In this document: in pieces, positions 30,935 through 64,000 of the stretch | Numbering within the stretch: position 1 is the stretch's first letter | Layout of the letters: every line of letters starts with the position of its first letter | Assembly (NCBI GenBank): GCA_964036295.1 | Contig: OZ038464.1 | Coordinates: 16,236,443 to 16,300,442 of the forward strand | Length of the DNA: 64,000 nucleotides | Direction: 5' to 3' | DNA from: Plumapathes pennacea | Taxonomy: Eukaryota; Cnidaria; Anthozoa; Antipatharia; Myriopathidae | Translations under genes and position numbers: made by a program | The notes under the pieces: model-generated | What the model saw: only the letters and a program-made list of their open reading frames with translations | The model's database searches: none | What the model was told of the DNA's origin: nothing

Positions 30935-31200
30935 CATTTACAAGTTGGACCTAAGCTTCATTCAAACACCACTAAATAACAGTGAACTTTTATCCGGCAG
31001 AAGTTTGCGAAACGTTACAGAAACAGGTCTCAAGTGCATGGTTCCAAGAACATTTGTCCATAGTGTGTTTGTGTGGGAAAACTGATCCGACTCGTAAACT
31101 ACAATTATAAACGTTTCACCGAATTCTATTGGTCACATTTTTGGAATTTTGTCCGAAAATGGCGGCATTTTAGAAAACCAAATCCAAACATTTCAGTTAA

Positions 31201-32617: not shown

Positions 32618-32760
32618 TAAATGGCGAGAGCTAATAAAAGGCACTGAGCCGCTCCAAATTGTCAATGGTCATAACCATAGGATAGGAAAAACAGTGAATT
32701 TGAAACGGTTTTGGCTACGTGTTGATTTTAAAAATTGTTTTTATATATTCTGTCAGCTGG

Positions 32761-32912
32761 CCGGAAATCACAAACAACCGCGCCTATTTAATTATTAAAT
32801 GTACATCATTCAAACACTCGGACAACCATCTGTCAGACTGAAGGTTGCCTATTGATTAATCAAAGGTCGGAAACGCACTTGAAGGCGAACGACAAATTGC
32901 TCTTGGGTAGCC
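32761..32912 (+). promoter_or_regulatory. Conserved 5' leader/promoter block of receptor gene B
   Basis: CCGGAAATCACAAACAACCG, the AT-rich TATTTAATTATTAAATG stretch and CATCTGTCAGACTGAAGG match the equivalent block in gene C and, more distantly, A. Confidence 0.5.
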
Positions 32913-41009: not shown

Positions 41010-43079
41010 CGCAATGGAATCAGGGGCGCATCCAGACAGGTTTACGGAAACCGCTCAATTTTTTGGAATTTAGTCCAGAAAGCCAAATCCTAATATTTTC
41101 AGGAGTAGTATGCCTGGGGCCGGAGTCCCTGGATGCTCTTTCAGCTCTCATAGATTTGGTAAACTGTCAGATTTTCTTCTGGATTTGCCCCTAGGAAAGT
41201 TGGTCTGCATCAAAGGGACACAACGCGCTCGTCAACTAAACGTTGGTGTAAATGCGCTGCACACCGTGTGAATAGTCACACATAGCTGTGCTTGTGATTT
41301 TACCGCTATATCCTGCGTGAACCAGGACAATATGAACACAAACTAAAGCAATCCAGTGGTAAATAGTCGGTCATCTTTAGATCTATAATTTTTCACACGG
41401 ACATCCGCGGTAAAAAGCGTAGCACTGCGCTAAGTTCTTGTTCTTATGTTTAAGTCATACGAAAGAAAAAAAAACATTCATTATTTTTTGTTCTTGCGCT
41501 TGTGCCTGCGTCGTTTTACACGTAATGCATTTTGTGAGCCCGTTTCTTTTAAGCTATGCTGGTCTTGTAGGTTTGATAATCAGACTGACGCTGTGATAGT
41601 TATTCCTTGTTTTGAATCATGGCCAGAAATAACGGACGTCGCAACTGAGCATGCTCAAAAAATGCAAAACAAGATGGCGTCCGACCTGATAGGAAAATGT
41701 AAGGGCCACGAAGTATAATCGAAAATAAAAGGTAATCGAACATACATGCGGTGTTTGCCTAAATGAATCCTGTTTGGAAACGCTAATACACATCTGAAAT
41801 CGCAAACTTTATGTCCATATCTGTTCACTTACCGGTTCCATTTCGAGTGTCTTTTTTCAGCGCTTATCCCTCTATGTAACCTTCTTAATATTTTCCGAAA
41901 ACGCCGGAGACGCAACATTGCACTGGAGACAGTCCTCTTCTCTTGAGCCGGAGCGGAGTTGCCTAAATCCCTTCCAAAAGTAGACCTGTTCCTTCGTAGA
42001 TGTAGTAAATTTCAGCTGGATTCACCGCGATTTACCGGTTCCATTTTAGCCACAAACTTGCTGTAATCTTTAGTTCGACAGAGCAAAGGTTAGATGACAA
42101 GGAGCTCTTCCGGTCACGAAAGAAAACCCGATTTTTTTACCTCCTTGCGCCGACTTCCCCGACCTTTTGGTATCAAAATAAAGGTCAGAATCCAAGCTTT
42201 GTACTCTTCTATGGAACTCTGGGAAGGCAGCTAAACAGTCAAAACGGTCAGCGTTTTCACGTGTGATCGTACGACTTCCGGTTCGGAAAATTGCAGGAAA
42301 ATTAATTTTCATAAGCTGTATTACAATTTAAAGTTATGTCTGACGTTTTAAGAGCTTTCGATTTTCGTAAATTCAAACAAGATGTTAGCATATCGACCAA
42401 TCATGATTTAAAGTATAAAGATGTCCATCCCCAGATGAAATCGTTCTTACAGTTGATATTCCATACGAGCATCTTCGCAGCTGGTATGATCTCAAAGAGG
42501 GTCTGTTAGCAGCGTTCTCATACACCTCAAACGTTTTCGGGTATACTTTAATTCTTTTCGGATTAGTTTCATAAAATGCCGCCGATGAGAGGTTGTGCAG
42601 CTGAAGATAATCGACCCTCTCACTCCTCTCACGTCTGGCCGCCATATTGGTTTGGGCGGGGTCCGCTGACAATGTTGCAGGCTCAGAATGTCCGCGATTT
42701 CTGGCCATGGTAACAAACGTCTCGCTACCAACTGGAAAGCTCTTAATGAGAGTTCTTGAGAATGTGTTGACCCTCTTGGGTGTTGACTCCCAGGGGGAAT
42801 GTTCCCCACAAAAAATGGCACCCTAAGCGTCAGATTCTAGTGCGCCATAAACATTCAAGACTCCAAACGATTGGCACGGTGAAAAAGAGATTGCAAAATC
42901 TTTTCTTTTTTTGTAGCTGAAGTTGATAACTTTGTAATAACAATATTAGCTAATAAAAGGCACTGAGCCGCTCCAAATTGTCAATGGTCATAACCATAGG
43001 ATAGGAAAAACAGTGAATTTGAAACGGTTTTGGCTACGTGTTGATTTTAAAAATTGTTTTTATATATTCTGTCAGCTGG
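41010..43079. other. Intergenic region B-C
   Basis: No gene is supported. It holds the sequence 3' of the TIR stop, a single ancestral copy of what became the gene D minisatellite (about 41436-41500), the 1,092-bp insertion and the duplication junction at 42947/42948. Confidence 0.7.
41618..42709. mobile_element. 1,092-bp insertion with inverted ends, absent beside gene C
   Basis: Ends CATGGCCAGAAATAACGGAC and, inverted, CATGGCCAGAAATCGCGGAC. The empty site in unit C (around 51902/51903) reads TTTTGAATGTAACAAACG. No target duplication is evident. A minus-strand open frame (42708-42385, MARNRGHSEPATLSADP...) starts in the right inverted end; I do not recognise it as a transposase. Confidence 0.8.
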
Positions 43080-43231
43080 CCGGAAATCACAAACAACCGC
43101 GCCTATTTAATTATTAAATGTACATCATTCAAACACTCGGACAACCATCTGTCAGACTGAAGGTTGCCTATTGATTAATCAAAGGTCGGAAACGCACTTG
43201 AAGGCGAACGACAAATTGCTCTTGGGTAGCC
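43080..43231 (+). promoter_or_regulatory. Conserved 5' leader/promoter block of receptor gene C
   Basis: Appears identical to 32761-32912 of gene B by eye. Confidence 0.5.
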
Positions 43232-46200
43232 ATGATCCTGCCGCTTCTATTGATGCAGACCTCAATATTACTCACAGCAGGTACGGAAAAATATCTAAAG
43301 AGCAACGAATTTGACATTTTGTAGTTGATTGCAGGATCTAAATGTTCTTCATTTTGCATAGCGAGCGTTAAAACTGAATATCATGCAAATTACCTTGGAG
43401 TGCGATGAGAAATTTGCACACTACTTCCACGCGCTGACGAACGAATCATGTTTGCCGAGAAAATACTGTGTTCGTGGGTTTGGCTTAATCAAAAGTGCGA
43501 ATTTTCAAAGTTGTGATGACACCCATTCATTTTTAGAAAACACACGAAAATTCGTTATGCAAAGTTGAACAGCAAATTGCTTTTTCAGTTTATTTCATCT
43601 ATAGTATAGATATGAAAAGTGTTACATGAAAAAAGAAAACTGCGCCACACTGTATGTCAGTGTGATAATTTTTGTACTAATAACATGACCTCGCAAAGGC
43701 GAAAGCCGTGCTCAGTGACCACAACCTATGTGAGCGAGTGTCGTCCGGTTTTGCACCTGCGATCGCCATGCTTTAGCAAGGCGGAACAATCAGCAACTAC
43801 ACAATCCAAGAGAAGAACACTAAAGTGACCCGCTGCTCAGTTTTATTGTACGTTTGGTCAGAGTGATGTAAATATCGTTCATCATATATTGACAGCCTCT
43901 CTCACTAAAAGGTTTGAAATTGCAGCCTAATATGGAGTTCATATGTTGGAGCCATGGAGTTCCCTTATTAGCGAAAGACAATCATTTCTGCTTTGTAGTG
44001 ACAACGCCGCCGGGGACTCGCATTATAATGGAAAAAACAATTTAATCGGATCTTCAAATATAGTTGATAAAAGTCAGAGGCGAAGCTCTCGCCCTCAAAT
44101 TAGCGAAGGACCATTAATCGTAACACAAGTGAACAAAACCACGAAATAAAGAAAAAAAAAAGTCGTTCGCCTTCGAGATATTCGAATTGACCCCGTCAAT
44201 CACTGAACAAATTGTACGTACTTTATTTTTTGAAGAAATATTCTCGAGAGACACAACTAATTTGCTCGAGCTTTTTAGTGAATGATCACAAGGGACTATA
44301 CCATAGATAAAACGGAACAAGCATGGAATAATTTATAGAACATACAATATTATAGTCATTTTATATTAAGGGTTTAGGACAAAAATATTCTGAGAACTTT
44401 TTGTACCACCCGTGTACTCGGTCCAGTTTTCCTCGGGATTAGTGGATTTATTTATGAGCCGCCGAACACAGAGTTCAGCGTTTCACAAATGAAGGTCCAA
44501 GCTGGCATGCTTCCCTGGCCAGGTTAAATAATAAAACCATGCATTTGATAGAGCGATTTTCAGATGACTGTCGGCAGTAATGATGTGATTGCTCTTGTCC
44601 GCTTAATCTTGCGTTTGTTACGCTTTCGGATTGGTCCAAAAAGTTGGCAGCATTCTGGACCAATCAGGAACAAAAGCAAAACCGGATCGTGATCTTCTCA
44701 CGTAAGCAAGCAAGTGGCGATCACGTGTTCACGCACGGTAGTTTGAGTTCTTCTTCAAAATAAAACCAAACGCAGATTATCCTCTGATTGCTTAAGTTTC
44801 CTAAATGATAAAAAAAGATGTAGGTGTAATCAAAAACCAAGATTTATCCAGAGTCCTTAACTACGAAACCTTCATCACGCACACTAAAGTTCCACATCTG
44901 AACGTATTAATGTTGTCATGGCTACCAAGAAATATCTCTTTAAAAAGTTTGTTTCAATTTATATAACGAGAAGAAAATGTCCACACTGAAGAGACAAAGT
45001 CATCTCGTTGCGATTGTATATTGCGACAGTATTCAAGACAAAATGTTTTCTTTTTCTTGTAGGGTCGGATTTGTTAGTCTCAATTAAATCTGTCGGACCT
45101 GTCAAGTCGGGAGAGAACGTGACCCTGAACTGCTCTGTAGTAACTGGGGTACTCGCCGACAACATTTACTGGTACAATACTGCAGATGTGAATACCAAGA
45201 TAAAAGTATCGAAAAGTTCCGTAGCATGGGACAGTCTCGTACTGCACGAGGTGACGCTGAAAGACGCAGCAACCTATCGCTGCCAAGCGAAAAAGGGACG
45301 AGAGACGGATGATGATGAATACACACTGGACGTGTACGGTGAGATATCACACCATGTCTCGAGCAGAAGTAATGACGTAAAACGAAAGAGTGACCTTCTA
45401 AAATGATGGGAGTCTTACGAGAAATGTTTAAATAGGGCTACCTTCAGCGACAGTCATCCCACTGCGCAACGGGCTATTTAAGTGAGACTCCAATTCACAT
45501 TATTCTCTAACCCGAGGGAGGGGGGGGGGGGGGTGGGGTACTCAATAGGAATCTGGGGGGGTTCCGCTACTCTATAAAACCCTGACCCTATTCAAGACAC
45601 AAAAATGGAAATTTTGCTACCCTGTCTAAGACAAAGTGCTCTAATTTGATACCCTGTTCAAGACTAAGTTTAGATAAGTTAGCCTGCGTTGTACGCGTTT
45701 CCACTGGAGCATACGAAGAAATCGCGCGAAAATGGCAAGAGCAAAACTGTGGTTGAGGGGGGAGGGGAAGAGGAGAAAATCTTCGGAAAATAACCCTGTT
45801 TAAGACACGAAAATGTAAAATTTGATACCCTGTTTAAGACAGAAGACCCTGAAAATGACCCTATCGGGCTGAACGTCCCTATATAGGAAATATATGGGAG
45901 TACACCACCCCCGGGTTCTCTAATCACTATGCAGTGAAACGAGAACAAATCATTTTGACACTAAAGTTACCATCAAACATACAAGAATCAGGAATGGGCA
46001 TCTCGTTTATTGATAGCCAGGCTTACAATTTAATGGACAGTGAAACAGTAGCCATTTAACAATAGATGAGGACTAATACAATATCCATTGATATCTGGCA
46101 CACAGAAGTAATTCTTAACAAGGGCAATAATGATTAACTTGCACACTGTAACAAAACTAAAGAAATTTGACGGAAGGTAAACGAGAGATGCCGTCGAGTG

Positions 46201-49200
46201 ACACTTGCTTGTGAAACAGGCCTTATATACCGTACCTTCTCACGAATAGTCATGCACACTTCACAACTATGAACAGAGTGAATACCAACACGTCCGAGCT
46301 ACCGCGACAAGCGTGCATTCCAAACGTGACAAAATACACCTCAAGACTATGGAATAATTTTATGTATGATAATTAAAGTTTGCATATATGAACTTCAGAT
46401 AAAAATGAGTTTATTTGTAAAGATAGCCCTAAAATATGAGTCATTTCATAAAAATTGACCATCATGTTTGACCTGCTCTTATAAAGGCTTTAGAGATTCG
46501 GATTCCGCTGAAGCCTGGAAATTTTCTAATGGATATCTTTGCAACTGGTTCATGACTACAAAAATCAATTTTTTTTTTTTTTTTTTTTTGTAAATGCCAC
46601 AAATAATCGTAATCTATAGTAACGACGCCGCCGCGTGGATTGCGTTTTTCGACCGTGCGATCACCTTATACTTTTTGAGTCAGCGGTCATTGCACAGAAT
46701 CGCAGAATTGACAGCAAATTCAATTGCAGTTTTCGTAGTTTGTGTAACGCATGTATAACCTCAAGACTAAGCCAAACAACTCAACAAAGACTCGATACTC
46801 AAGTATACTAGTTAGTTCAACACATTTTCTATGTAATTTGTGCACAAAAACACGAGCTTGGACACGATGTGAAATTTTACCAGAAGAATGTATTTCGGCA
46901 GTGCTGGAAGTACATGGACAACGCGAAAATACATTTTTCAGTCGTGCGGTCACCTAATTCTTGGGAGTCAGCAATCACTACATAAAACTGTGGATTCAAG
47001 TGCATATTTTGTACTTCAGTATAACACTCGTAGAAACCTCAAGCTTTAGCCAAGAAAATCTATAGTATAGGACTCGATATTAAACTATGATACAGCTCAA
47101 CTAATTTTCTATAGCCTAAAGTTGTGCAGAAGGAAAACGGGATTTGCACACGAGGTCAATGAAATTTTATCTCGGGTCCGTCGCCATTATGTAACTCGAT
47201 CTAATCTGACAAACGAAAGTGACGTCACAAACGTATTTCTCCGCGGTGCCGTGGTAAATGTATTTACAGTCAACTTTCTCTAAGTGGACACCTCTCTAAG
47301 GCGGACAGCATACACAGTTTGGTCCTTGCTGATTTTTCCTTGTTTCTCAGTAATTGAACTCTCTCTAAGGCGGACACTAAATCTAGTCCCGAGGGTATCC
47401 GCCTTAGAGAGAGTTGTGACTGTAAACTCTCTACATTTTCAGTTAAGCCTGAGGTGCAACTTTCCCCACTACGGATAGCGAAATCATTTGACGATACGAG
47501 CGAAGACTGCACGGCAACAGGATTCCCGAGACCAAACATAACTTGGTATTTTAATGGTGAAGTTCTGAAACATTTAGCAATGTTGAACTCAGTCATCATA
47601 CGAACAGAACCATTAACGAGAACGAGCGTGGTATCATTTCTGGAACTAAAGGGTATTGAACGCGATCATGAAGGTAATTACACGTGCGAAGCAACGAACG
47701 AATTGGGAAGCAGCAGAAAAACCTGGCTGTTGTTGTTAAAACGTAAGTAAACTAAACTATAAAGCCATTTTTTAAACAATTTTTAAGACAAAAGGTTATT
47801 CTAACGAAATCCGGCGTAACAAAAACGAAATACATACACAAATTAGCCACACCGCACATACAATCATACACTGATCAGTGCATCCAAGCCTTGGGGTCGA
47901 GCCTTTCTTCCATCCAAGCCTTTCTTTTATATTGACCAAAATACATTTTTGAAAGCGCGCTAAATACAGTTCTAAGATCTAGCTCCAGGCAAACTCATGT
48001 GCTTCTGATTTTTTTTCTCTTTTTTGCTAAATTTTTACTCAAATTCCAAGAGTAATCACACTTTTATAATCAAAGGCCCAAACGTCTAATATTTCGTGGT
48101 TCTTACAGGTGACCCTAAGGTCATTGCTGGTGACATTCAGATAATACGTGAAAGCGGAAATGTAACGCTTTCATGTGAAGGACAAAATCTGCTCGACCAG
48201 GACTCAGACGTAGCCTTCTTCTGGGATTTCAAACTGAAAAGAATTCCTAAGAACAGTGCTCACTACAAACAACGTACCAATCGTATTCCACAGGAACAAG
48301 TTGTTCATATGAAACTGGCGATCCTGAATACTTCCTCTGGTGATGCCGGTCTATACGATTGCCATGTGAAAAATAGCGTCAAACAATTAAGTGGAAAAGT
48401 GCGCTTAGTTGTTGTAAGCAAAGGTGAGAGAACGTCTTATGTTTACTCTTGTGTATCTCTAATATGGATCGGCGCATGGACATAAAACTTGGCACATAAG
48501 CACCTCACTGTAAACATTTTCGAAGGTGTAAAAAATTATTTAAATCCGAGGGTCAATTTAGCCTCCATTACCACCTAAAGTCACGCTTGTATTGGACTGA
48601 CATAAAGGCACACTGATTTAGTACAAACTGGTTCACTAAAACTGGTTAAGCTAGACTTTGTGGACTTTGTCTATGATGAGGTCATTGAACATATTTCACA
48701 TTGCATTTACGCTATATATAAAATAGTCATTCATTCATTGCTCGTACTGTTGTCGTTTCTTGCCTCAGACATTAAACCGAAAGCCAGGATCGCAGGGCCA
48801 AATGAAAAGGCAGTAAAGCTTGGATCAAACGTCACTCTTCGGTGTAAAATATCCTACCCCGCCTACCTGAAGACGGTGAACATGTCCTGGTCAAACAGCT
48901 CAGCTAAATACAACGTCATTGAAAATAACGTAGACGACCTAGCCTCAAGATCCTTTGTACTTTCTCTGGATTTTGTGAACATTACTCGTCAGGATTTGGG
49001 TTCTTATACGTGTCAAATAGACACTTCCATTGGCAGTTCTGTAGCTCGAGTTCGAATGATACCTCTGCAAGAAGGTGTGGAACAGAGACTATAAGATATT
49101 AGGGGGCGTTCGATTGTGTCTGTTACGGAATAGGAATAGCAATACTGATTGATAAAATATTTTGCTTTGGAGCTGAATTGTGTGGAAATGTATCGGGAAC

Positions 49201-51294
49201 TGTTCAAAATACCAGCGTGAAGGTTTTGATAACAACCCCGAATTTTCCCCAAAACAAGCAAAAAACTTTGGATCATTTTAGCTATTCCTATTCTGGAATA
49301 CGGTCAATCGAACGCACCCTCAGCATTAAGGACAAGCCAATTTCATCAGTCTTTCATTCTGTTGAGTGACGCCTTCCTGTTTTGTGGCCTTACAGAAGAC
49401 AAAACAAACAAGGCCTATTCCACCATTAGTTTAGTTGTGCTTGGAACAGCTATGCGAAAAATTGATTAAAATTGATGTAGTCTCATAATCTCATGGACCG
49501 TAGTCAAGTAAATCAGTGAAAAAGAAAGAACTGAAGACAATGCCACCTCACTCAGTCATCACGTGACGGACTAGCACTGACTTGAACTCGAATCCCAACT
49601 TTCTTTGCAACTGCTTGAGTTGCTGCATAACTCCAAACGATCTCTTTCACTAGTCTTCTCTAGCCAATTTCATCTATACGTTTCTTATTTACTTTCCTAC
49701 TTTATGACATTACTCATGCAATGGATAAATTACCTTCTTTCCTCACCCCCACTTCACGCTCTCTATTTGTTAACAGAAGCTTCTGGTGACAGCCTGGTAA
49801 TGTTGGCAGTTATTGCTACAGCAGCGATTGCTTTCGGTTTGTCTGGCGCGCTTTGGCTGCTGCGCCTCTGGCACAAAAGGAAAACGCCGCGCTACCACGG
49901 TATGTTTATGCGTACATGAAGTGCTTTGACTTTAACCCATTCACTCCCAAACTCAAAATGCAGATCCTCACAACCTTAAAAATGAATGAGTAATGTAGTG
50001 AGAATTGATAGTTTAATCAGCTTTCATCTTAGCAAGGTATCAAAAGCCAAGTTCTCCTTACTGTAATATATGTTTCTGGTGAGAAACTGAAGGAGAAAAA
50101 TCGAAGTGGATCACTATTGGGATTGAAAGAGTTAAGTCAAGCCAAACTCAGGGCGCGTTTTTGGGGATTATTGGCCGTCTATCCAATTCCGGTATAAGAA
50201 TAAAAAATACACCAAATCCCAAAAGAACAGACGTTGCGCTATCCTGAAAACAGTGATAAACCTTCGCATTGTATGACCGAGAAAGTCTGGCGCGGGCGGG
50301 CAATTTTCTCGCCAGAAGACAGCGCCTCTTCTGTCTATTTCGAACATACTACTGTCAGAAGCAGAATAGACTGAATGCTATTCATTAAAAAACGAGCGTC
50401 TAATAGCGGCAGTCAAAGACTCTTTCAATAGAATAGAACACTATACAAATATTTATAGAATCAATGATCTGGCTAGGAGCTGGACGAAGATATTAATATA
50501 TTACTGTACCAATCGAAAGTTTTCCTTTTGTCAAAATTACTCTTCCACATTCCCTTAATTAGGATTGTAAGAGTCTTCCGTCAGGCTTTACATGAAGGTT
50601 TGTTGCACACGAATGACTGACGAACATTCAAAGCTCGAAATAATGGTCTGGATTAGTAGCCTCGCAGGGTTAGGAAATTAGTCACATAACTCGCGCGTGT
50701 AAAGTAGCGCCAGTCAAAAAGGTGACTGACTAAGAAGCTAAACGAAGATATTACAGAAAAACTAATCGAAAGGTCACGAGGTTTCTTTTGTCAGATCAAT
50801 AGGAATGGAACTTTGTGTAAACTAATACTAACCTCACATCTCATGCAGGTCCCATAAACAACGAGGAGTTCAAATACGACGTGTTCATCACCTTCAGTGG
50901 CAAAGACTTCGCTTGGGTCAAGGCAAAGCTGATCCCTCTACTGGAGAAGCACAGTGTGGAATATTGCATCCACAACAGAGACTTTGAACTTGGCAAGACA
51001 ATCTTGGACAACATGGCGGACAGCGTGTACAAGAGTAAGAAGGTACTGGCGGTTATGTCTAGGAACTACATGGACAGTAAGTATTGTCGAGGCGAGCTGG
51101 AGATGGCGCTGTACAGGAGCACGGAGATGGGCGACTCGTCTGTCATCGTTATACGGATCGACAATATTGAGAAGGATAAGCTACCAAAGGCCCTGCGAAA
51201 CCGAACGTTCCTTGATTATTATGATGAAACAGAGAGGAAAACCTGGGCAGAGAGAATCATGAAACATCTGACTCAAACATCAATTAAAATATGA
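43232..51294 (+). CDS. Ig-TIR receptor gene C (recent duplicate of B)
   Basis: Predicted 604-aa receptor. Exons: 43232-43280 (signal peptide), 45063-45338 (Ig1), 47443-47742 (Ig2), 48109-48423 (Ig3), 48769-49074 (Ig4), 49777-49899 (TM), 50849-51294 (TIR). All are in frame and phase 1. Against B: signal peptide and Ig2 identical, Ig3 one silent change, Ig4 two replacements (T to A in DDLTSRS; D to E at the exon end), TM exon one replacement (first codon Gly to Glu), TIR one silent change. Ig1 has 12 differences with 8 replacements. C keeps the YRCQAKKGRETDDDEY form that resembles A and D, so B looks like the derived copy, or C was converted. Role as for B. Confidence 0.92.
45510..45908. repeat. 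Transposon-like repeat, copy in gene C
   Basis: Counterpart of 35190-35600, with small indels in the G run and the GATACCC motif. Confidence 0.7.
47267..47422. repeat. MITE with TA duplication just before the Ig2 exon of gene C
   Basis: Counterpart of 36983-37138, inherited through the segmental duplication. Confidence 0.85.
49102..49319. repeat. MITE after the Ig4 exon of gene C
   Basis: Counterpart of 38818-39035. Confidence 0.8.
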
Positions 51295-53034
51295 CGCAAT
51301 GGAATCAGGGGCGCATCCAGACAGGTTTACGGAAACCGCTCAATTTTTTGGAATTTAGTCCAGAAAGCCAAATCCTAATATTTTCAGGAGTAGTATGCCT
51401 GGGGCCGGAGTCCCTGGATGCTCTTTCAGCTCTCATAGATTTGGTAAACTGTCAGATTTTCTTCTGGATTTGCCCCTAGGAAAGTTGGTCTGCATCAAAG
51501 GGACACAACGCGCTCGTCAACTAAACGTTGGTGTAAATGCGCTGCACACCGTGTGAATAGTCACACATAGCTGTGCTTGTGATTTTACCGCTATATCCTG
51601 CGTGAACCAGGACAATATGAACACAAACTAAAGCAATCCAGTGGTAAATAGTCGGTCATCTTTAGATCTATAATTTTTCACACGGACATCCGCGGTAAAA
51701 AGCGTAGCACTGCGCTAAGTTCTTGTTCTTATGTTTAAGTCATACGAAAGAAAAAAAAACATTCATTATTTTTTGTTCTTGCGCTTGTGCCTGCGTCGTT
51801 TTACACGTAATGCATTTTGTGAGCCCGTTTCTTTTAAGCTATGCTGGTCTTGTAGGTTTGATAATCAGACTGACGCTGTGATAGTTATTCCTTGTTTTGA
51901 ATGTAACAAACGTCTCGCTACCAACTGGAAAGCTCTTAATGAGAGTTCTTGAGAATGTGTTGACCCTCTTGGGTGTTGACTCCCAGGGGGAATGTTCCCC
52001 ACAAAAAATGGCACCCTAAGCGTCAGATTCTAGTGCGCCATAAACATTCAAGACTCCAAACGATTGGCACGGTGAAAAAGAGATTGCAAAATCTTTTCTT
52101 TTTTTGTAGCTGAAGTTGATAACTTTGTAATAACAATATTCATAACTAACATTTCATATAACTTAGTATTCTGAATAAAATACGAAGTATAACTTAGTAA
52201 CACATCAAAATATTCGGTACATCAGCATTGGGAGTAATAAAAGAAATCCATCAGTGATCCGCAGTTCACATCAGATTGTTTAATTTGAGGGACTGCAAAA
52301 GTTAGGTATTGAAAACTTTGAATGTGTTTGCAGTCTTCTGATTCTGATCGCAGAAGCAGTGCTGTACTCAAGTCTTACATTCTAGTGTATAAAAGGTTGG
52401 GTCTCGATGACCAAAATTTGGCGGGTGTGGCGGCATCTTGGTTGGCGGCGACGGATCACTGACACTTTTAACTCAACAACATTTAATTCCACACGGCAAA
52501 CAGAGACAAACGTACACACTCGTAAATCAATTTGTAAAACTTGTAGTAGAATTTGTGAAAGTTGCAGGTAAAAACATTACAGTTTGTCGTCCAGGTTTTG
52601 CCCCAAAATCCGCTTTAAACAGCGTCGTGTCAACTCACTACGGCGCCATCTTGGAAAAAAGCACATGTTATCCCCACCGCGTAAGGCATGATGGGAAACG
52701 GAAAACCGCTGAACACTTAAAATAACAAAAACGAATCGCAGCGAATCTGTTTTACAACGTTGTAGCACGATAAACACGGCAATCTGGGGGCTGACAAATG
52801 ATTGTGAATTACTCGTCCCCGGGAATTTACAGACCGCTCGGTCCCTAAAGCCTCCCCAGGCAAGGGAGTGTCAAATGCCTGGAGTATGCCTAAGGGAGAG
52901 GGAGATGTTGGGGCTTCGAATCGATTCGTATATAATGGGTTAGAGGCTGACAAACGTTTATGAATTATCAAAGCCTTCGCTGATTATTAACAGAAACAAT
53001 AAAATCGGCAAATCAAATCATTTTTCTTGTCAAA
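51295..53034. other. Intergenic region C-D
   Basis: Continues the duplicated 3' flank to 52140, then sequence whose relative lies downstream of gene D (ATCCATCAGTGATCCGCAGTTC near 52250 resembles 61795-61815). No exon with supported frame and splice sites was found. Confidence 0.6.
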
Positions 53035-53191: not shown

Positions 53192-56100
53192 ATGATACTG
53201 CCATTCCTTTTATTGATGCAGACGTCAATTCTATTCACAACAGGTACAACAAAAGCAGCTATTTTGAGACTCTAGTCATTTGCAGGATCTAGTTATTCTT
53301 CAGTAGTATCGGGTGGCTCGTAATAGCGAACGCCAAACTGAATATCATAAAAATCACCTTGAAGTGACTTGAGTTTCGCACACTACCTGACTGTTGAATG
53401 TGTGGTTATGCCGAACAAAGCGAGTTTGCCAAGAAAATATTGTAATTGTTGGTTGGCTTAATCAAAACACCAACTCTGAGTCCGATGGGACAAGTGGGGA
53501 GTCTGATGGTGTCCAACAGACAGACGGAAAAATGCAAGACATATAGCCAAAGTCTAAATCTAACTAACAGACGATCTAACTAATCGGGAACGTCTGATGG
53601 TATCAGATAGACCGATGGAAATGTAGCGAGTGAAAAAAGTGCCGTGCCTACAAGCCTAGCACAAAGTGTTGACCAGCGATGCCCGATGGACGCAATGACG
53701 TCCATCAAAAATTCTTTTCAGAACGAAACAGCACACTTGTAAGTAGTCAAGCTGATGCATACAGGCGCCCAAAATGTTGACCGACGGACCGACGATCGAT
53801 TAAACTGAATTCCTATTTGTCCGTCAAACTCAGAGGGTGTGTATTGGACGTGTGTGAATCAAAAGTGCCGACAAATCGTTAAAGTTGGTCACACCCATGT
53901 GGCAATGCAACCGTCAAGCAGCAATTTTGCCTCTTCAGTTGATCTCCTCAGTTTAAATCTAGATATGGAAATGTGTTGTATAAGAAAGATCATTGCTACG
54001 CTGTGTGCCACAGGCGGCCCAAGCTCGGTGTCTAAATGTTGCGTAACTCAAGATTATAAGGAAATGTATGGGGATTTTACCGACCACGGAAAATCATAGA
54101 ATTTTATAATGAAACTCTAAATAAACATTCGCTCCCCGTTGATAGTTGCCTCCTATGTCCCTATGAACGGCGGGAATTTCTACCACTAATACTGGCCGCA
54201 GCGGCTCTAAATTAATACAAGGGACACAGGAGACAACTAATGACGGGTAGCGAGCGTTTATTTTGAGTTTCATTATCAAATTCTATGATTTTCCGTGATC
54301 GGTAAAATCCCCATACATTTCCTTATAATCTTGAGTTACGCAACATTTAGACACCGAACTTGGGCCGCCTGTGTGTATGCTAGACGATTGGGCGGTAAAT
54401 GTGGGCGCGTATCCTGGTTTGCACCTGCACTATCACACACATGAGGCGGAACGGAAATATACAAAGAAAGGGCCTCGCGAACACTAAAATGACCCGCTGT
54501 TTGCTTATTGAAAGTTTGGCCAGAGTGATTCGTTTATCACATATAATGACAGCCTCTTTCATTAATGGCATTGAAATTGCCGCCTAATGTATCAGAAAAC
54601 ACTCCGCGGAGTTCCGTTTTAAGGCAGAAAATCGTTTTCGATCTGTAGTCAAAACACCAGGAGTCCGGCGCCGCATTAATGGCAAAAACAATTCATTCAT
54701 TGTTTTTGCAGCAGGCTTGAAGTCTGCGGGTGTTCGTCAATTAGTTGATATTTACCGGTATTAAGCCTTAAGTATATTTAAGTAATTTACATGAATAAGA
54801 AAATGACAATTCCTTGCGCCAGGACATACATTACTGTCTAGAACAAATTTGGACACTAAAGTTCTCCAAATCTAGATTGAAGGTGGCAAAACTTTCACTG
54901 TTACCACCACACAGCTATGGGACACTATTGACTTTAAAAACATTCGTAAATTGCCAACTGTTAGGTCTTTCATAAACGCACTTAAATCGAATAGTTTAAA
55001 TAATCAGCATAATGTAGCACATTTTAATCCATAATTTTATTTTTTGTACGTGTAATATTGTTACCCGTAAAATATAGTCTTTACTTACTTACTTAGTAAG
55101 GCTTCCTAGTTGATAGGTCCGAGCAAGAGACCATGTGGTCCAAGACGTAGTCCTCGCCCTGAAACTACTCTAGAGTACTAAACGTTTTAAAGCAGAAGTG
55201 AATAAAACCACAAAACGAAGTAGAAAACAATTCTGTGATAGGTCGGTACCGCGCCTAGATGTCGTCCGCAGACAGTGACAGACATAGATAGATAACAATC
55301 AAATACCATGATTTGCCCAAGTTCTTAACGTCTTAGACACCTTCATTATGCACACTATGAAAGTGGCTACTGGTATTATGCACATTATGAAAGTGGCTAC
55401 TGGTACGTATCTCTTCAAGAGTTTGTCCCAGTATATATAATAAACAGAACATCACAGGGTGCGTAATGGGCTGCTGACATTTCAAGACCATATTAAAGAG
55501 ACAAACGTCATGACTGTAAATGACTGTATATGCGGCAGTATTGAAGACAAAATGTCTCCTTTTTCTTGTAGGGTCTGGTTTGAAAGTATTCTTTGATCCT
55601 GTGAGATTCGTAACTGTCAAGTCAGGAGATAACGTGAGCCTGAACTGCGTTGTTGGAACAGGAGGACCCGCCGACAACATTTCCTGGTACAATACTGCAG
55701 ATTTAAATACCACGATAAAAATATCGAATAGGTCTGCACGGTTCTACAGCCTCGTACTGTACAATGTGACGCTGAAAGACGCAGCAACCTATCGCTGCCA
55801 AGCGAACAAGGGACGAGAGACGGATTATGATGAATACACACTGGACGTGTACGGTGAGATATCACACAATGTCTTATTAAATATTGTTTGGCGCTTCAAC
55901 GGGTCGAGATTCGTCATAATGTGATTCACACACAACAGGTTAAGTGAGAGTTCAATTCACACTTGTATATGTGAACTGCGGATAGAAAATGAATCAATTA
56001 TATGTAAAGATAGCCCAAAATAACATGAGTCATTTCATAAAAAGTGACCATCACATTTGACATGCTCACATGTAAGGCTTTTAGTACGCACGCTCCGGTT

Positions 56101-59100
56101 AGTCAAAACTTACAGTTCACTAGCACTAACTAAAGTTTATGTTACGTATATTAATTAGTTACAAAAATTTGTGCTTTTTTTCGTAAATGTCTCAAGCAAA
56201 CCGTAGAAACGATGAAGTGATGATACGTTATTCGACCGTGCGATCACCTTATTCTTTTAGTCAGCGGTCATTGCATAGAACTGTGGAAGGAAAGCCAAAT
56301 GTTTGTAGAGATCGTAGAGTAGGTCAAACAGGTAGGTAAAACAACTTAGGAACAATTTGAAACCAAAGTGTTCTTCGTTACCAAGCTATTAGAGAAATAA
56401 TATTCCTGAGAAAATGGGAACTTTGTACCGGCCATTTTGGTGTACAACCTCTGATGCTGTAGTATATTAAAGTTATCAAACTCTCCACGTTTCCAGCTGA
56501 GCCTTTGGTGCAACTTTCCCCACTAAAAAGGGTAAGTGACAATGTACGTCAAGACTGCACGGCAAAAGGATTCCCGAAACCAAACATAACTTGGTATTTT
56601 AATGATGAAGTTATCGAAGGAGGTGACGGCAGATTCCTCGGTAGAGTCTTCATCATGGAACTGATATCGCCAACTAGCACGAGCTTGGTGTCATCTTTGG
56701 CATTGATCGACGCTGATGGCAGTCTCGAAGGTACTTACACGTGCAAGGCAATGAATGAAATGGGAAGCAGCAAGCAAATCTTGCAACTCTTAATGAAAAG
56801 TAAGTAGACTGCGCAAACAATAGAAAGTTTCACCCACAGAAAGCAAGAAGAACATGGAATGAACTTGAACTATCATTTCTCAACAGATTTCTCCTACGAT
56901 GCCTTTTACTCTTGCTTGCTTGGGGAAAATATACGTTCGCTCAAAGATTTCTTGGTCAAAAATTTAAAAAAACTGAAAATAAAGGCACACTGGGCACGTG
57001 TACTCATGCTGGTTGAGAGATAAATTCTTCTATTATTGACGAAAAAGACAATTTTTAATACAGTTCTAAGATCTAAATTCCTCTAAACTGATGTTTTTCA
57101 GTTATTTTGTTTTCTTTCTTGCTTTAGTCTACATTTATACTCAAGTTCCAAGAGTAATCATAGACTCTAAATTATTGGTCCAAAATTACAGTATTTTGCG
57201 GTTCTTACAGGTAAACCCGAGGTCATTCCTGGTGACACTCAGATAATACGTGAAAGCGGAAATGTGACGCTTGCATGTGAAGGACAAAAGTTGCTATACA
57301 ATGACCCAGACGTAGTTTTCTTCTGGAACTTCCAAGGGAAAAGAATCCCAACTGACAGGGCTCACTATAAGCAAAGCATCATTCATGTTCCAGGGAAGTA
57401 TGTTGTTCACATGAAACTGGCGTGTGATGCTACCACTGCTACGGATGCCGGTCTATACGAATGCCACGTGAAAAGCAGCCTCAAACAATCAAGTGGAAAA
57501 GTGCGTTTGATTGTTGTAAGCAAAGGTGAGAAAAAACATCCAAAATTATGGTCGTTTAGTCAGTTGTCAGCGGCAAGGTGACAGAAGGTTTTTATGAAGT
57601 CACGTGATACAATTCACACTGGGGCCAATTAAATAAAGCATTTACAAGTGTATTTTACAAGTCGGACCAATTTCCCCACACGTTAAAACACACTTTAATC
57701 CAACACAATGGCCAAATATTGTTGTGGTCGTACACTGGGGGACTTGTATCTGTAATACTGTGCAGATTTTGCTGGATTAGAGTCCGTTTAGTGGTGTTAT
57801 AATAATGGTCCAACTTGTACAATACACGTGTAAATGTTTATTGAATTGGCCCCTGGTTCAGAATAAACTGGGTGATGGTGCTAAAACTGGTTTAACTAGA
57901 CTCGAACAGATTCAGCACCATCACCCAGTGTGCTATTACACTACTTTTTACAGGAAAAAAAAAAAACTTGTCAAAGCAATCCGCAAAACGGAGAAATATT
58001 TGTTAGACTATCGTATTAACTGATTGAAATGAAGATGATTCCTTTGCTGTACGTTGTTAAGGCAAACGGTTCTCAGAACAAAACTATTTTCACTGCGGGT
58101 ACCACGCCCGTTAAGTAACTGGAATTCACATACAAATAGGAGAATCTTTCCGGTGCTCTGATCTGTCGGCCTCTACCAGAAATCACCATTAATCCAACGA
58201 ACGGTTATTGACATCGTAACCCGCATTTGAACATATTTCACAAGGAATATGAGCGATATAAACTAAATAAAAATCAATCACACTTAGATATTTATCATTT
58301 CTTGCCTCAGATATTAAACCGAAAGCCAGGATTGCAGGGCTAAATGAAAAAGCAGTAAAGCTAGGATCAAACATCACTCTCCGGTGTGAAATATCCTACC
58401 CCGCCTACCTGAAGACGGTGAACATGTCCTGGGCAAATAGCACAGCTAAATACAACGTCACTGAAAAGAATGCAGACGACCTAACCTCAAGATCCTTTGT
58501 ACTTTCTCTGGATTTCGTGAACATTACTCGTCAGGATTTGGGTTCTTATACGTGTCAAATAAACACTTCCATTGGCAGTTCTGTTGCTCGAGTCATGCTC
58601 CTGTTAGTAGCTGCAGGTATGTAAAAATCATAATTATGTGGTCCTGTTGTTAAAAGCTCGATATTCATTATAAGCTATTAGACTGTAATCAAGGATATAC
58701 CACGTAAATTTTTCAGTCTTTCATTCTCTTGGCCAACAAATTGATCTTGGGGGCTGTGATCAAAACTAAGGGACAACAGAAACGTTTGTTGTAGTCCATA
58801 ACATATACCCGTACAAAGGTTTACAGAAAACAAAATAAAATAGTGATAAGTTCTATTCTATTTAGTTTAGTTTTGCATGGAACTAAACTCGGCCCAGAGT
58901 GTGTCAAAGTGAAATTTATGTTGTCTCATAATCTCGCAGAAGAAAATATTGTAATCGCGGGATTCCCACTGCAAATCATCAAGTAAATCAGTCAAAAAGA
59001 ACCTGACGAGATTGCCACCTCACTCAGTGTATGTCATTGTCATCACGTGACAGACTTGCACTAGAACGGAGGTCATGAACTCGAATTCCGTTATCGCTCT

Positions 59101-60462
59101 GGTATTTTTTTCATGCGGGCTTTCTTTATAACTGCTTGAGTTGCTTCATCACTTCGAACGATCTCCTCTAGCCAAGTTCATCTAAGTTCTTCATCAAGTT
59201 CTTAATTTACTTTATTACTTTATAACAACGGCCGTCATACAATGGAAATAATTGTCTTCAACTAACTTCTTTCCTCACCACCACCCCATCCTACTCTTGA
59301 GGATAGAGCGTTTGTGGCTGCAGCCCTAAACTTTAGAACTCTCTGCAGAGAAATGTCAGAGGTGCAGCGACAGTAGATAGTTTTAAACGGCTTTTAAAAT
59401 CCTGTCTTTTTAAAGAGGCGTTTTAGCGAACGTCTTCGTCACAACAAGAGTAGATAATCTTAACGATTTTATGTTAGAGACTGGGGTTCTTGGAGTAGGG
59501 GGAAAATGAATGCATGTATGTTTTGAAAGCTTTTTAACATGGTTGCTAGCTTGTTTTAGACTTCATTAAGACTAGCTCCAGATTGTCATACTGTTATGAG
59601 CATTTGATCATACGTATGAAATTTGCGCAATATAAGTTAATAAATTATTATTTATTACTATTACGTCCTCTCATTTTTAACAGGAGGTAAAGCCCCGCTG
59701 AGTCCAGACACTTTTGATAAAAGACTGGTGATGTTGGCACTTATCCTTACAACAGGGATTGCGGTGGGTGTGTCTGGAGCAACTTGGGTGTGGTGGCTCT
59801 GGCGCAAGAAAAACCAAACCCACCTCGGTATGTTTATGGAGTAAATACCATAAAATTCCGCGAATAAGCCCTGTATACTTATATTTGTTCAAAAGGACTC
59901 TTTTTTAGGGGGGGGGGGAGAGAGAGAGAGAGAGGGAGTCTTATAGTTGGAGGGTATTTTGCGACATACTCGCGAAAGTGGTTTATTGCTTCTTTCCTTG
60001 TTATGAAATGAAGGGCGCGTAGAACCGCTGTAAATTTTAGAAATAACAATAAACAAAAGTTTAAATTCTGGTTAGTTTGAGAAGGGGGGTCGGGATTAAA
60101 AATCAAAACTAAAACGATAACGTCCTTATATGGTACGGGTCATTGGTGATTGGGTGTTAAGCCAAAGGCTTATACTTGGGGGGGCTAATTATGGGGGGGG
60201 GGGGGATGTTGTGTTTTCGATGTGGTGGGCGGGGATTAAGGGAGGCTTACTTTCGGGGGAGGGGAGTATTTACGGAAATTTACAGTAAGTTAGGAAACTA
60301 CACAAAGATATTACAGCGCCAATCAAAGCTTTAACCAATAGGAATAAATCACTTTTGTAAACTGACATTAATAACCTTACTCTTCCAGATACCAAAAACA
60401 AACCAAGGGAGGAGCTCAAGTGCGACTTGCTCATCACCAAGGTCGAAGTGAGCACAAACTAA
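53192..60462 (+). CDS. Receptor gene D: four Ig and TM, TIR domain truncated
   Basis: Predicted 491-aa membrane protein. Exons: 53192-53243 (signal peptide MILPFLLLMQTSILFTTG), 55572-55853 (Ig1, two codons longer than in A-C), 56497-56799 (Ig2), 57211-57525 (Ig3), 58311-58616 (Ig4), 59684-59827 (TM near aa 434-458, then LWRKKNQTH), 60389-60462 (TIR remnant, KCDLLITKVEVSTN then stop). The ectodomain is intact: every Ig keeps both cysteines and the tryptophan, every splice site is usable and phase 1 is kept. The last exon keeps the start of TIR box 1 (LKCDLLIT for FKYDVFIT in A-C) and then stops, so no signalling domain remains. The intact ectodomain with a tail of about 33 residues suggests a decoy or co-receptor as in IL1R2 (inference). 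A decaying gene is the alternative. Confidence 0.85.
54009..54373. repeat. Large foldback, about 150-bp arms, in intron 1 of gene D
   Basis: The left arm begins CACAGGCGGCCCAAG and runs through GTAACTCAAGATTATAAGGA to CCTATGTCCC. The right arm is its near-perfect inverse, ending CTTGGGCCGCCTGTG. The spacer is about 60 bp. Confidence 0.9.
54843..55095 (+). mobile_element. 3' fragment of a non-LTR retrotransposon
   Basis: A short frame ending TQLWDTIDFKNIRKLPTVRS...HFNP-stop has the LW...PTVRSFxxxLK pattern common at the C-terminus of reverse transcriptases of LINEs. It is followed by AT-rich sequence and a TTACTTACTTAC tail. In intron 1 of gene D. The clade is not assigned. Confidence 0.55.
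57621..57853. repeat. MITE with GGGGCCAAT ends in the Ig3-Ig4 intron of gene D
   Basis: The left end GGGGCCAATTAAATAAAGCA continues through TTTACAAGTGTATTTTACAA and is mirrored at the right by TGTTTATTGAATTGGCCCC. A second copy is at 61246-61490 and a half copy at 30923-30979. Confidence 0.85.
59298..59662 (+). mobile_element. 3' end of a CR1/L2-like non-LTR retrotransposon
   Basis: Frames read RAFVAAALNFRTLCREMSEV and, after a frame break, TVDSFKRLLKSCLFKEAF-stop. These match the conserved C-terminal pattern of LINE reverse transcriptases. The tail GCGCAATATAAGTTAATAAA runs into TTATTATTTATTACTATTA. It ends 21 bp before the TM exon of gene D. The clade is inferred. Confidence 0.65.
60389..60462 (+). 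pseudogene. Remnant of the TIR exon in gene D
   Basis: Aligns with the start of the TIR exons of A-C (GPINN-KEFKYDVFIT), then diverges after ATCACC. The following AGCACAAACTAAAGCAAT matches sequence 3' of the TIR stop in B (GAACACAAACTAAAGCAAT, 41334-41352), so about 0.7 kb holding most of the TIR domain is missing. The stop TAA sits in the fused 3' flank. Confidence 0.85.
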
Positions 60463-61170
60463 AGCAATGTTCTTGTGTTTGTGTCATTCCAGAGGCCGAA
60501 AGAAAAACATTCATTTTTCTTGTTCTCTTGTGTTTGTGTCATTCAAGAGGCCGAAAGGAAAGCATTCATTTTTCTTGTTCTTGTGCTTGTGTTTGTGTCA
60601 TTCAAGAGGCCGAAAGAAAAATTTTCATTTTTCTTGTGCTTGTGTTTGTGTCATTCAAGAGGCCAAAAGAAAAACATTCACTTTTCTTGTGCTTGTGCTT
60701 GTGTTTGTGTCATTCAAGAGGCCAAAAGGAAAAGCATTCATTTTTCTTGTTCTTACGTTTGTGTCATTCAAGAGGTCGAAAGAAAAACATTCATTCTTGT
60801 GCTTGCCGTGTTTGAGTCATTCAAGAGATCGAAAGAAAACATTCATTTTTCTTGTGCTTGTGGTTGTGTCATTCAAGAGGCCGAAAGAAAAACATTCATT
60901 TTTCTTGTGCTTGTGCTTGTGCTTGTGTCATTCAAGAGGCCGAAAGGAAAACAATAATTTTTCTTGTGCTTGTGTTTGTGTCATTCTGTCAAGAGGCCGA
61001 AAGAAAGACATTCATTTTTCTTGTGCTTGCCGTGTTTGAGTCATTCAAGAGGTCGAAAGGAAAGCATTCATTTTCTTGTTCTTGTGCTTGTGTTTGTGTC
61101 ATTCTGTCAAGAGGCCGAAAGAAAAACATTCATTTTTTTTGTGTTTGTGTTTGTGTTTGTGTCGTCCCGG
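60463..61170. repeat. Minisatellite of about 12 units replacing the TIR region of gene D
   Basis: The unit is about 50-58 bp, built on TTCTTGTGCTTGTGTTTGTG, TCATTCAAGAGGCCGAAAGA and AAAACATTCATTTT. Two units carry CATTCTGTCAAGAGG. Units lack stops in the plus frames, so long Cys/Lys/His-rich open frames arise. The single-copy ancestor is recognisable downstream of the TIR in B and C (41436-41500, 51721-51785). Confidence 0.92.
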
Positions 61171-61245
61171 TTTACCCGTGATGGTTTTTGTGCTTAAGTG
61201 CGCTTCAGTAATGTGCGGCTTATTCTTGCTTCGTATGTTTGATAA

Positions 61246-61490
61246 CCGGGAACCAATTCAATAAAACATTTACAAGTGTATTTTACAAGTCGCACCAATT
61301 TTCTCACACGAGTTAAAACACACTTTAATCCAATGGCATGACCAGGTACTGTTCCAGTTCTATATTTAAGACCTGTGTATCTGTAACGTTTAGCAGAGTT
61401 TTGTTAGACTAGAGTCTGTTTAGTGGTGTCTGAATAATGGTCCAACTTGTATATTACACTTGTAAAATGTTTATTGAAATGGCCCCAGGT
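61246..61490. repeat. MITE with GGNNCCAAT ends downstream of gene D
   Basis: Left end AACCAATTCAATAAAACATT and right end AATGTTTATTGAAATGGCCC are mirrored. It interrupts sequence that is continuous in B and C (GTTTGATAA | GACGCTGTGATAGTTATTCC). Confidence 0.8.
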
Positions 61491-64000
61491 TTTTAAGTAC
61501 GCTTCGATAGTTATTCCTTGTAGTTTAGTGAGCGAAGCTATTAAGTCTGGCTATTCATTGGAAAGCTCTCTGTGAGAGCTCTTGAGACAGGAAATGTTAA
61601 TAGTTTAGAATTGCTTATCATTTAGTTGCAATTTTACACAAAGCTTAGGATTAGAAATAGCGACTGAGCGATAGAATCCAGGGGTCGGATTCACAACATA
61701 CCATATTGCACAAGAAAGTAGGTGTAAGTCGTCCTTATATATAAAGACATAAAATACATAGTTCATAAGCATTTGTAATGAAATCACGAAATGCACCAGT
61801 GGTCTATCTGTAGTTCGCATCGGATTATTTGATTTGCGAGAATGCAAAACGTAATTATACAAAATAATAACTTTTTGCAGTCTTTTGTCGTTGAACAACC
61901 ATGATGATAATATGCACAAAAAACTTATGTACCAGCTTATACAGCTTTGAACTTACGAAAAAATAAAGCTTGTCTCTCGCTGTAGCAGTCTGTTACTCTA
62001 ATAAACCTTTTGGGAATCCTGTACAGGGCGAGGGCATATCCGCGAATATCGTATTTCTAGTACAACTGAAGCTTGAACTGGACGCTAGAGACTGCGGTGT
62101 GAATTAGACCATTGTCACGTGACCTTTCTGAGTGATTAAAGATACAGTCAAACAGACGAGAGAAACAGACAGACAAACTGACCGAGCAGTAACAGGCGGA
62201 ACGGCGACAAGTTGCGAGTCGGCCAAGTGTTCACCCTATTTCAAACTAAAATGCTTGAAAACTCGGGCCCATTAAAGTCCTGGGAACGAGGCGGCTCATC
62301 AGGCGGAACGGAGACTGGTTGCGAATCGGCCAAAGTGCAGTGTTCAAGCAAAGCGTGAAGCAGAGGGCTGATTTAGTAAAATGGTGCAAATACTGGTGGT
62401 TTTTGCCCTGGCTGGACTGATGGCCCTGTCATACGCCGGAGGAGTCTTCTTTGTTCGTCTTCTGAGAACAAACTCTGTGTACTAACGGAACTGCACCGTA
62501 CTTCGACCTTCGCGTAAGTTAGTACGTCATTAGAAAATGGAGACAAAAGAGCAACCGTGGAACGTGTTTGGGAGCGAGAAAGCCAACAGATACTCCAGAT
62601 AGCTGAATGTAATCCAACAGAGAAGCACAGACTGAGCCGTAAAGATAGCCGAAGCTGACTAGCCGGATGGATCACCGATTCACCCCGATTAGGTTTGCGT
62701 CAGGACCACTGGCCTGTAGTAGATCAATATCACAAACTAGTTGAACAAACCACTTCATGTGGACTATTTTCCGAAGTTTTTGCAACACGCATTTATAGGA
62801 GGGAAGATTTTGTAATCAAGTATACCTTCGACAAGTCATCATTATGTATCTGTCTGGTGAGGAACAGTTTGTTTGTTCATTTGTAGTTTTCATAACGGAA
62901 ACGAGCATTTTAATATTAAAATAAGATCACGCTTTGATACCTAAAAATAGATCATTTACTTTCTTCAGTCGTTTCTTTGGCTGATCGCTTGTTTGGCTTC
63001 CGGAAAGCCTCCAAGAAAAATAACTAAAACATTAACTTCCCGTAGCCGCTGCTATGTGTGAAGACATTGGAACGCCAGTTGACACAAACAGCTGAATCAA
63101 ACGATTGTAACATGTTGGTACAACATCACCCAACATGGTGTACAAACGATCGTAACATGTTGTGCCCAACAATGTTGGGCGATGTTGTGCCAACGCATTC
63201 GTTTGCACGGGCCTTTAAAATTGTCAAATTAGCAACTCTCTTGTTTAACCTGTCGGTTCGTCATCTCTATCCTCAGTTCAGTAGACTTGCTAATACTTGT
63301 CGTTTTGCACATTCCCCTTTACCCCTCCCCCGACCGACACGACAAGTGCTCAAAAATCGCGAGTTCGTCAACCGATCGCGTATACGGACGATCGTATTAA
63401 AAAGGCTCGAAGTGGGGCATTTGTATATCTTTGTAATTCCCAGTGGCGGATTTAGGGGGGCCGAGGGGGCCGCGGTCCCCCCTTTTGTCTGGGTCTCGGA
63501 TTTTTTCAGACAACGTAGACCTCTACAATCGTACACGGGCTTTGTTTTTCGTCTTTTGTTGTTGTTTATATCAATCAATTCAGAACTTTTGTTCAGTTTC
63601 GTTACCAGCAATTATTATAAAGAAAATTGAGAAACAAGCAGCAATGTGGAATGACGTTCTGCGTGCAAACAACACTCTGACACTCATCCGGCCCGGGATC
63701 CGGCCCAGGCGTACTTGTGTAATTGTGTTGCAAAATTAATCCGTCTGAAAAGAGCCATAGAGCCAATGAGAGAAAATGGGTTTGTTGAGAACGAGACGCT
63801 CTCTCCTTTTTCACAAGGATATACCTTTGGATTACAGTGCAATTGTTGACGACTATGCCACGTGTAACCAGAGAAGGATGACATTCATCAATCCCATGAT
63901 GTGACTCTTCCTTATATCATCTGCATGGGATTGATGATTGCAATAGGGTGACCCTAGTTTGTTGGCTCCTATACTATTAGCGCGCTGCAACAGATTTATC
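61491..64000. other. Right-hand flank, repeats and no confirmed gene
   Basis: To about 61900 the sequence is diverged array flank (matches 52230-52340). 62197-62240 and 62299-62345 are a local duplication of AGGCGGAACG...CGGCCAA. 63095-63200 has palindromic AACATGTTG-type repeats. 63440-63490 has the GGCGGATTTAGGGGGGCC motif. Only one weak coding candidate (62381-62485) is seen. Confidence 0.5.
62381..62485 (+). CDS. Candidate short signal-peptide exon or small ORF
   Basis: ATG in good context (TAAAATGG) opens a 34-codon frame starting MVQILVVFALAGLMALSYAG, which looks like a signal peptide or TM segment. It ends at TAA. A strong donor-like GTAAGT follows near 62514, but the frame stops before it. 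It could be the start of a further gene whose remainder lies beyond the window, or chance. The family is not recognised. Confidence 0.25.
   Translation: MVQILVVFALAGLMALSYAGGVFFVRLLRTNSVY

Follow-up and report, generated by a model that had tools for sequence, protein, structure and literature searches.

In a 64-kb window of the genome of the antipatharian Plumapathes pennacea (64,000 nucleotides, contig OZ038464.1, positions 16,236,443 to 16,300,442 of assembly GCA_964036295.1; all coordinates below are those of this window), four tandem genes, here called A, B, C and D, encode receptors with extracellular immunoglobulin (Ig) domains. Genes A to C end in a complete TIR domain, while gene D (53192-60462) has lost this domain through a deletion and nevertheless retains an intact frame of 491 residues. 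The Ig ectodomain of D evolves under purifying selection, apparently long after the TIR was lost, and its most probable role is that of a decoy in the membrane or of a dominant-negative partner to A-C. A first-pass annotation, made from the DNA letters, had proposed that D is a TIR-less decoy receptor. Hereof the missing TIR, the intactness of the gene and the selection on its ectodomain following an apparently old loss are supported by our data, from which we infer the decoy role itself.

Results

Gene D is an intact receptor gene without a TIR domain

Exon models were built for all four genes, which form a head-to-tail row on the + strand with a spacing of about 2 kb. Each gene consists of seven exons, which encode the signal peptide, four Ig domains, the transmembrane region and a final segment, respectively. 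All 24 introns (six per gene) are bounded by GT/AG and lie in phase 1. The four reading frames stay open up to their final stops. In A, B and C the final exon encodes a complete TIR domain, with full-length TIR matches to all three in tblastn searches.

The signal peptide of D (MILPFLLLMQTSILFTT) is encoded at 53192-53243, and the 60 bp upstream of it are 80% identical to A. The following exons encode Ig1 (55572-55853), Ig2 (56497-56799) and Ig3 (57211-57525), each placed by exon model and Pfam, Ig4 (58311-58616; exon model and alignment) and the juxtamembrane segment with the transmembrane helix (59684-59827; exon model and hydropathy). In the last exon (60389-60462) a TIR remnant, reaching to about 60438, is fused to former 3′ flank and ends with the stop codon TAA. 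All eight canonical Ig cysteines are present in D (residues 43/93, 132/194, 235/297 and 343/399) and are invariant in the protein alignment of D, A and C. At an E value of 0.001, Pfam detects Ig domains in four stretches of D and no TIR, while the same search yields four Ig stretches plus the TIR in A. The hydropathy peak at residues 434-452 marks a single transmembrane stretch, leaving a cytoplasmic tail of about 35 residues; this stretch as well as the signal peptide were called by inspection and hydropathy only. Taken together, the exon models, the cysteines, the six GT/AG introns of D and the Pfam Ig matches bear out the earlier description of a gene with intact signal peptide, four Ig exons with their cysteines, transmembrane exon and splice sites. 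Since the stop codon lies within the last exon, nonsense-mediated decay is not expected for D.

Retention of the intron after Ig4 (donor at 58617 in D, with equivalents in A-C) would yield a soluble ectodomain of 421-424 residues in all four genes. Intron 1 of D contains a 154-bp inverted repeat (54009-54373; 92% complementary, 57-bp loop), which resembles a foldback element or miniature inverted-repeat transposable element.

The TIR was removed by a deletion of about 716 bp

The last exon of D is homologous to the TIR exon of A-C up to about position 60438. Beyond this point D resembles the 3′ flank of B, with 24 of 29 bases identical between D 60440-60468 and B 41324-41352. Relative to B, about 716 bp (B 40608-41323) are gone from D, comprising the larger part of the TIR, the former stop codon (B 41007-41009) and some 314 bp of flank. 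Both joined points in B carry the trinucleotide ACC (40605-40607 and 41321-41323), and the junction in D (60436-60440) has one extra A. Of the TIR, 15 codons that align with A-C are left, together with two inserted codons, after which D reads seven codons of former 3′ flank and then TAA. The first-pass annotation was thus correct in describing an in-frame fusion to the 3′ flank, as seen from the match to B, and in placing the end of the TIR exon after the first beta strand.

Between the end of D (60462) and position 64000, tblastn with the TIR detected no remainder of the domain, other matches being at chance level (E 1.2 or more). Likewise, no new array gene was detected in 60500-64000: neither the 5′ regions of A, C and D nor the Ig1 exons of the latter two gave more than matches of 11-16 bp (E 0.13 or more). 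A TIR exon or further array gene right after D was rejected, as neither a TIR nor a gene start was detected in these 3.5 kb; splicing of D to another TIR exon, a possibility raised at the outset, is hence unlikely within the window.

A 59-bp minisatellite of 12.3 copies (60468-61163, + strand) matches roughly 100 bp of the 3′ flanks of B and C (41434-41536 and 51719-51821). Beyond it lies an 86-bp imperfect inverted repeat (61239-61496). The segments 61255-61454 and 57641-57694 each match the 3′ flank of A (30936-31125) in inverted orientation.

The ectodomain of D is under purifying selection

Selection was evaluated by fitting a codon model to the tree (A,(B,C),D), that is on four sequences of which B and C are near-identical, with a D branch that includes the stem of A-C. 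For Ig1-4, the ratio of nonsynonymous to synonymous substitution rates (dN/dS, ω) is 0.58 on the branch leading to D, compared to 1.11 on the others, and ωD = 1 is rejected (p = 0.0048). The rejection persists when the signal peptide and the transmembrane exon are included (p = 0.0022), when Ig2 (p = 0.0078) or Ig4 (p = 0.031) is left out, and for gap-free columns (p = 0.0024). Bootstrapping the codons 80 times gives a 95% range of 0.40-0.78 for ωD; none of the replicates reaches 1, and all lie below the background value. The dN/dS comparison of the D Ig exons with those of A-C, named beforehand as a test of the decoy proposal, is thereby passed, although support for the share of constraint that postdates the loss becomes marginal when the model is at its most permissive (see Discussion).

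The loss of the TIR appears to be old

Between A and B, the 148 codons of the TIR differ synonymously in 12 cases and nonsynonymously in 2 (ω = 0.054), while the Ig exons of A-C show ω values near or above 1. Genes A-C hence carry a fast-diversifying ectodomain above a fixed signaling domain. In the TIR remnant of D, 1 synonymous and 8-9 nonsynonymous differences fall within 15 codons, and ω on the D branch is 1.12 (confidence interval 0.48-2.15, with branch lengths held fixed). A remnant with ω of about 1, set against a strongly constrained TIR in A and B, indicates that the TIR loss spans much of the D branch; the loss is apparently old.

The signal peptide, Ig1-4 and the TIR were analyzed jointly in a two-epoch model. 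Hereby, the no-decay version is worse by 21.4 (twice the log-likelihood difference, 2ΔlnL). When the pre-loss ω is set to the background value, the neutral fraction of the branch is 0.87 and the post-loss ectodomain ω is 0.44, and a neutral post-loss ectodomain is rejected (2ΔlnL = 11.6, p = 0.0007). Neutral simulations at about 0.15 substitutions per site, the distance that the null needs, remained stop-free in 0.2% (A exons) or 0.07% (B exons) of 1500 runs each. A long-neutral pseudogene would thus fit D poorly, and we are rather confident, as far as these models reach, in an old loss combined with a selected ectodomain.

Conservation differs between the Ig domains

The protein identity of D to A and B, respectively, is 72 and 65% for Ig1, 54 and 48% for Ig2, the most divergent domain, 64 and 66% for Ig3, and 87 and 84% for Ig4. 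At the DNA level D and A share 92% identity over the Ig4 exon, and 68% and 63% over its 60-bp flanks; compared to B, the upstream flank is 67% identical and the downstream flank did not align. Since the identity to A drops at both exon edges, gene conversion is disfavored as the only cause of the Ig4 identity; for B this is visible at the upstream edge, the only one that could be aligned. Ig4 may represent a shared contact surface and Ig2 a diverging, perhaps ligand-facing domain. Such a pattern would favor a dominant negative of the dimerization type over simple capture of the same ligand.

Neighboring genes and repeats

Gene A (22136-30882, + strand; exon model and Pfam) encodes a signal peptide, four Ig domains, a transmembrane helix and a TIR in 616 residues. 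Genes B (32913-41009) and C (43232-51294), both on the + strand and supported by exon model and tblastn, have the same architecture with 604 residues each, C being a tandem copy of B with 98.7-99.6% identity. The blocks containing them (32629-41617 and 42948-51902) are near-identical, with 98.7% and 99.6% over two stretches, and either were duplicated very recently or reflect a haplotype that was not collapsed. Within the otherwise almost identical blocks, Ig1 (34742-35017 in B, 45063-45338 in C) differs in 10 of 92 codons, 8 nonsynonymously and 2 synonymously; a quick binomial estimate gives P of about 0.0004 for 10 of 38 mismatches falling in 276 of 3628 bp. Diversifying selection or conversion is a possible cause. 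Intron 1 of A contains a 41-bp tandem repeat of 6.6 copies (23842-24111). On the - strand, a frame at 14959-15177, one of seven frames scanned, bears a weak resemblance to PF12422, a subunit of condensin II; at E = 0.00019 the match does not reach the curated cut-off. The frame is probably part of an opposite-strand neighbor gene. An Rfam scan at gathering thresholds gave no match anywhere in the window.

Discussion

We give slightly better than even chances to the view that D is a working receptor paralog which lost its TIR long ago, kept its ectodomain and now serves as a decoy or dominant negative. The deletion of about 716 bp would have removed the TIR signaling domain, and purifying selection would then have preserved the ectodomain. 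Located in the membrane, D would pair with A-C, for which the conserved membrane-proximal Ig4 is the likeliest contact, or hold their ligand. The resulting complexes would be signaling-dead, as D brings in no TIR, and signaling by A-C would be lowered. For the decoy mechanism as such, which is derived from sequence features, we consider the odds to be even.

The first TIR strand, covered by the remnant in D, presumably corresponds to Box 1, and the receptors termed Group III in the vertebrate literature discussed next are taken by us to be IL1R2. Vertebrate IL1R2 and D (published sources are used here, as below, on the basis of excerpts) have in common an Ig ectodomain, a transmembrane segment, a short tail without TIR and a chromosomal cluster of TIR-bearing paralogs (PMC12108812). 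IL1R2, which has no TIR, ties up the ligand together with the accessory chain in a complex that is inactive (PMC9020223), and in humans it ends in a Box 1-like stretch (PMC4168765). Group III receptors typically have no TIR, and two fishes still possess one (PMC12108812), so that TIR loss from a full receptor would be a route common to IL1R2 and D. Judged from the sequences, the resemblance is nonetheless one of convergence, and D is not an IL1R2 ortholog. D contains four Ig domains compared to three in vertebrate IL1R2. The TIR of A is nearest to those of TLR6, TLR1 and TLR2, with no IL-1R chain among 30 matched PDB sequences. Of 125 PDB matches to the D ectodomain 60 were listed; the nearest of these are titin and I-set cell-adhesion proteins, and none of the 60 is an IL-1R chain. 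The excerpts further report that no IL-1 ortholog was found outside vertebrates (PMC9020223) and that cnidarian Ig-TIR proteins possibly arose independently of vertebrate IL-1R (PMC1896004, PMC5094078). The lineage-specific IL1R2 equivalent suggested in the first-pass annotation hence stands as a convergent likeness only, given the four Ig domains, the TLR-like sibling TIR and the adhesion-like ectodomain.

Genes A-C share the IL-1R-like (Ig-TIR) architecture of cnidarians, of which D is an exon-by-exon paralog without the defining TIR: D shows the several extracellular Ig domains with signal peptide and, by hydropathy, the single transmembrane helix of this class, and lacks the C-terminal TIR. 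Ig-TIR genes have been described in Nematostella, actiniarians and Porites (PMC1896004, PMC5094078, PMC10236652). For two corals, the genes of TIR orthogroups are reported to number 56 and 47, of which 49 and 42, respectively, contain a TIR; for the other 7 and 5 the excerpts do not specify whether the absence is real or an annotation gap (PMC10236652). TIR-less relatives may therefore not be rare. In the open-access literature on cnidarians and invertebrates we found no description of a TIR-less or decoy Ig-TIR receptor in cnidarians, and one scan of viral contigs with the TIR as query returned no relatives. Human type II IL-18R alpha is a membrane-bound form predicted to end, much as D does, after a Box 1-like stretch (PMC4168765), but it is a splice variant of a signaling gene, whereas D is a gene of its own that lost the domain by a deletion in the genome. 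In the invertebrate Ciona, CiTLR6 and CiTLR7 are expressed relatives of a TIR receptor family that themselves lack the TIR (PMC12816324). Unlike the Ig ectodomain of D, theirs consists of leucine-rich repeats (LRR); they are argued not to be authentic TLRs, and the excerpts contain no deletion junction or selection test (PMC12816324).

Several observations weigh against a decoy with a long-selected ectodomain. Exon by exon, the selection tests are weak (Ig1 p = 0.28, Ig2 p = 0.20, Ig3 p = 0.099, Ig4 p = 0.027), the transmembrane exon of D appears unconstrained (ω of about 1.2), and the small tree, with its two near-identical members and a D branch covering the stem of A-C, limits what the model can tell. 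The TIR remnant is short and partly linker, so that the released constraint is not all that of the TIR core. If the pre-loss ω is left free, post-loss neutrality is only marginally rejected (2ΔlnL = 4.42), with both fits at parameter bounds; neutrality then requires a pre-loss ω near zero. The phase of insertions and deletions carries no weight for selection: with loose gap costs, multiples of three make up 5 of 21 (D-A) and 7 of 20 (D-B) exon gaps versus 10 of 59 and 6 of 32 intron gaps, while the stiffer costs, which were tried on exons alone, gave 9 of 13 and 8 of 14. The latter comprise 8 of 8 and 8 of 8 outside Ig2 and 1 of 5 and 0 of 6 within it, where the net frame is kept and the loop is too diverged to align; no weight was given to this test. 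Finally, Ig2, a plausible ligand-binding domain, is the most diverged one, which weakens capture of the same ligand.

These points also bear on the competing explanations. D could be a dying copy or pseudogene whose frame is open by chance, the TIR loss being recent or selection having ended with it, as the unconstrained transmembrane exon and the marginal test with free pre-loss ω would allow. A recent loss disagrees with the already diverged remnant and the poor fit of the no-decay model, and an end of selection disagrees with ωD below 1 over the whole branch, the intact splice sites and the lack of any stop or net frameshift, given how rarely neutral runs stay stop-free at the inferred distance; we regard this explanation as improbable. 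Slightly more credible, yet still unlikely, is a TIR-less co-receptor that teams up with proteins carrying a TIR, either A-C or TIR-only membrane proteins, and activates instead of inhibiting. It is equally compatible with the conservation of Ig4 and has a parallel in the split receptors of Hydra, where LRR-only proteins pair with TIR-only membrane proteins, ectodomain and TIR thus residing on separate proteins (PMC5094078, PMC8260672); TIR-only proteins are moreover expanded in corals (PMC10236652). A-C, however, already own a TIR, and it is the joining of two TIRs that usually triggers IL-1R complexes (PMC9020223).

To the same low degree we consider that D was re-used as a plain Ig-transmembrane protein for adhesion or recognition, apart from signaling by A-C. 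Its strongly diverged Ig2 is consistent with this, as are the solved structures closest in sequence to its ectodomain (titin, neurofascin, NCAM2, contactins, Dscam and Robo, from the 60 PDB matches that were listed out of 125), but the 84-87% identity of Ig4 to A and B suggests a shared interface. Very unlikely, finally, are splicing of D to a TIR exon beyond the window and an assembly error in its structure. A donor-like GTGAGC is present in the last exon at 60448, but the 3.5 kb past D yielded neither a TIR nor a gene start, with array genes spaced by about 2 kb, and a downstream TIR would be expected behind its own signal peptide and Ig exons. The near-identical B and C copies make the array hard to assemble; in contrast to a fresh misjoin, however, both sides of the D junction are diverged from B.

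Decoy receptors of the IL-1R kind are already known from vertebrates. That a non-vertebrate animal independently made an IL1R2-type decoy, by a cut of the TIR just after its first strand, and maintains it as a standing heterodimer inhibitor via a frozen Ig4 while the ectodomains of the signaling copies diversify over a near-invariant TIR, is a proposition we put at a little under even. If true, inhibitory receptors would arise repeatedly and by a similar cut, and D would be a selected genomic TIR-less copy within a cnidarian-type Ig-TIR array. Ig4, possibly the pairing domain, and Ig2, possibly the ligand-binding domain, would give separate testable predictions and thus a handle on the role of these orphan receptors.

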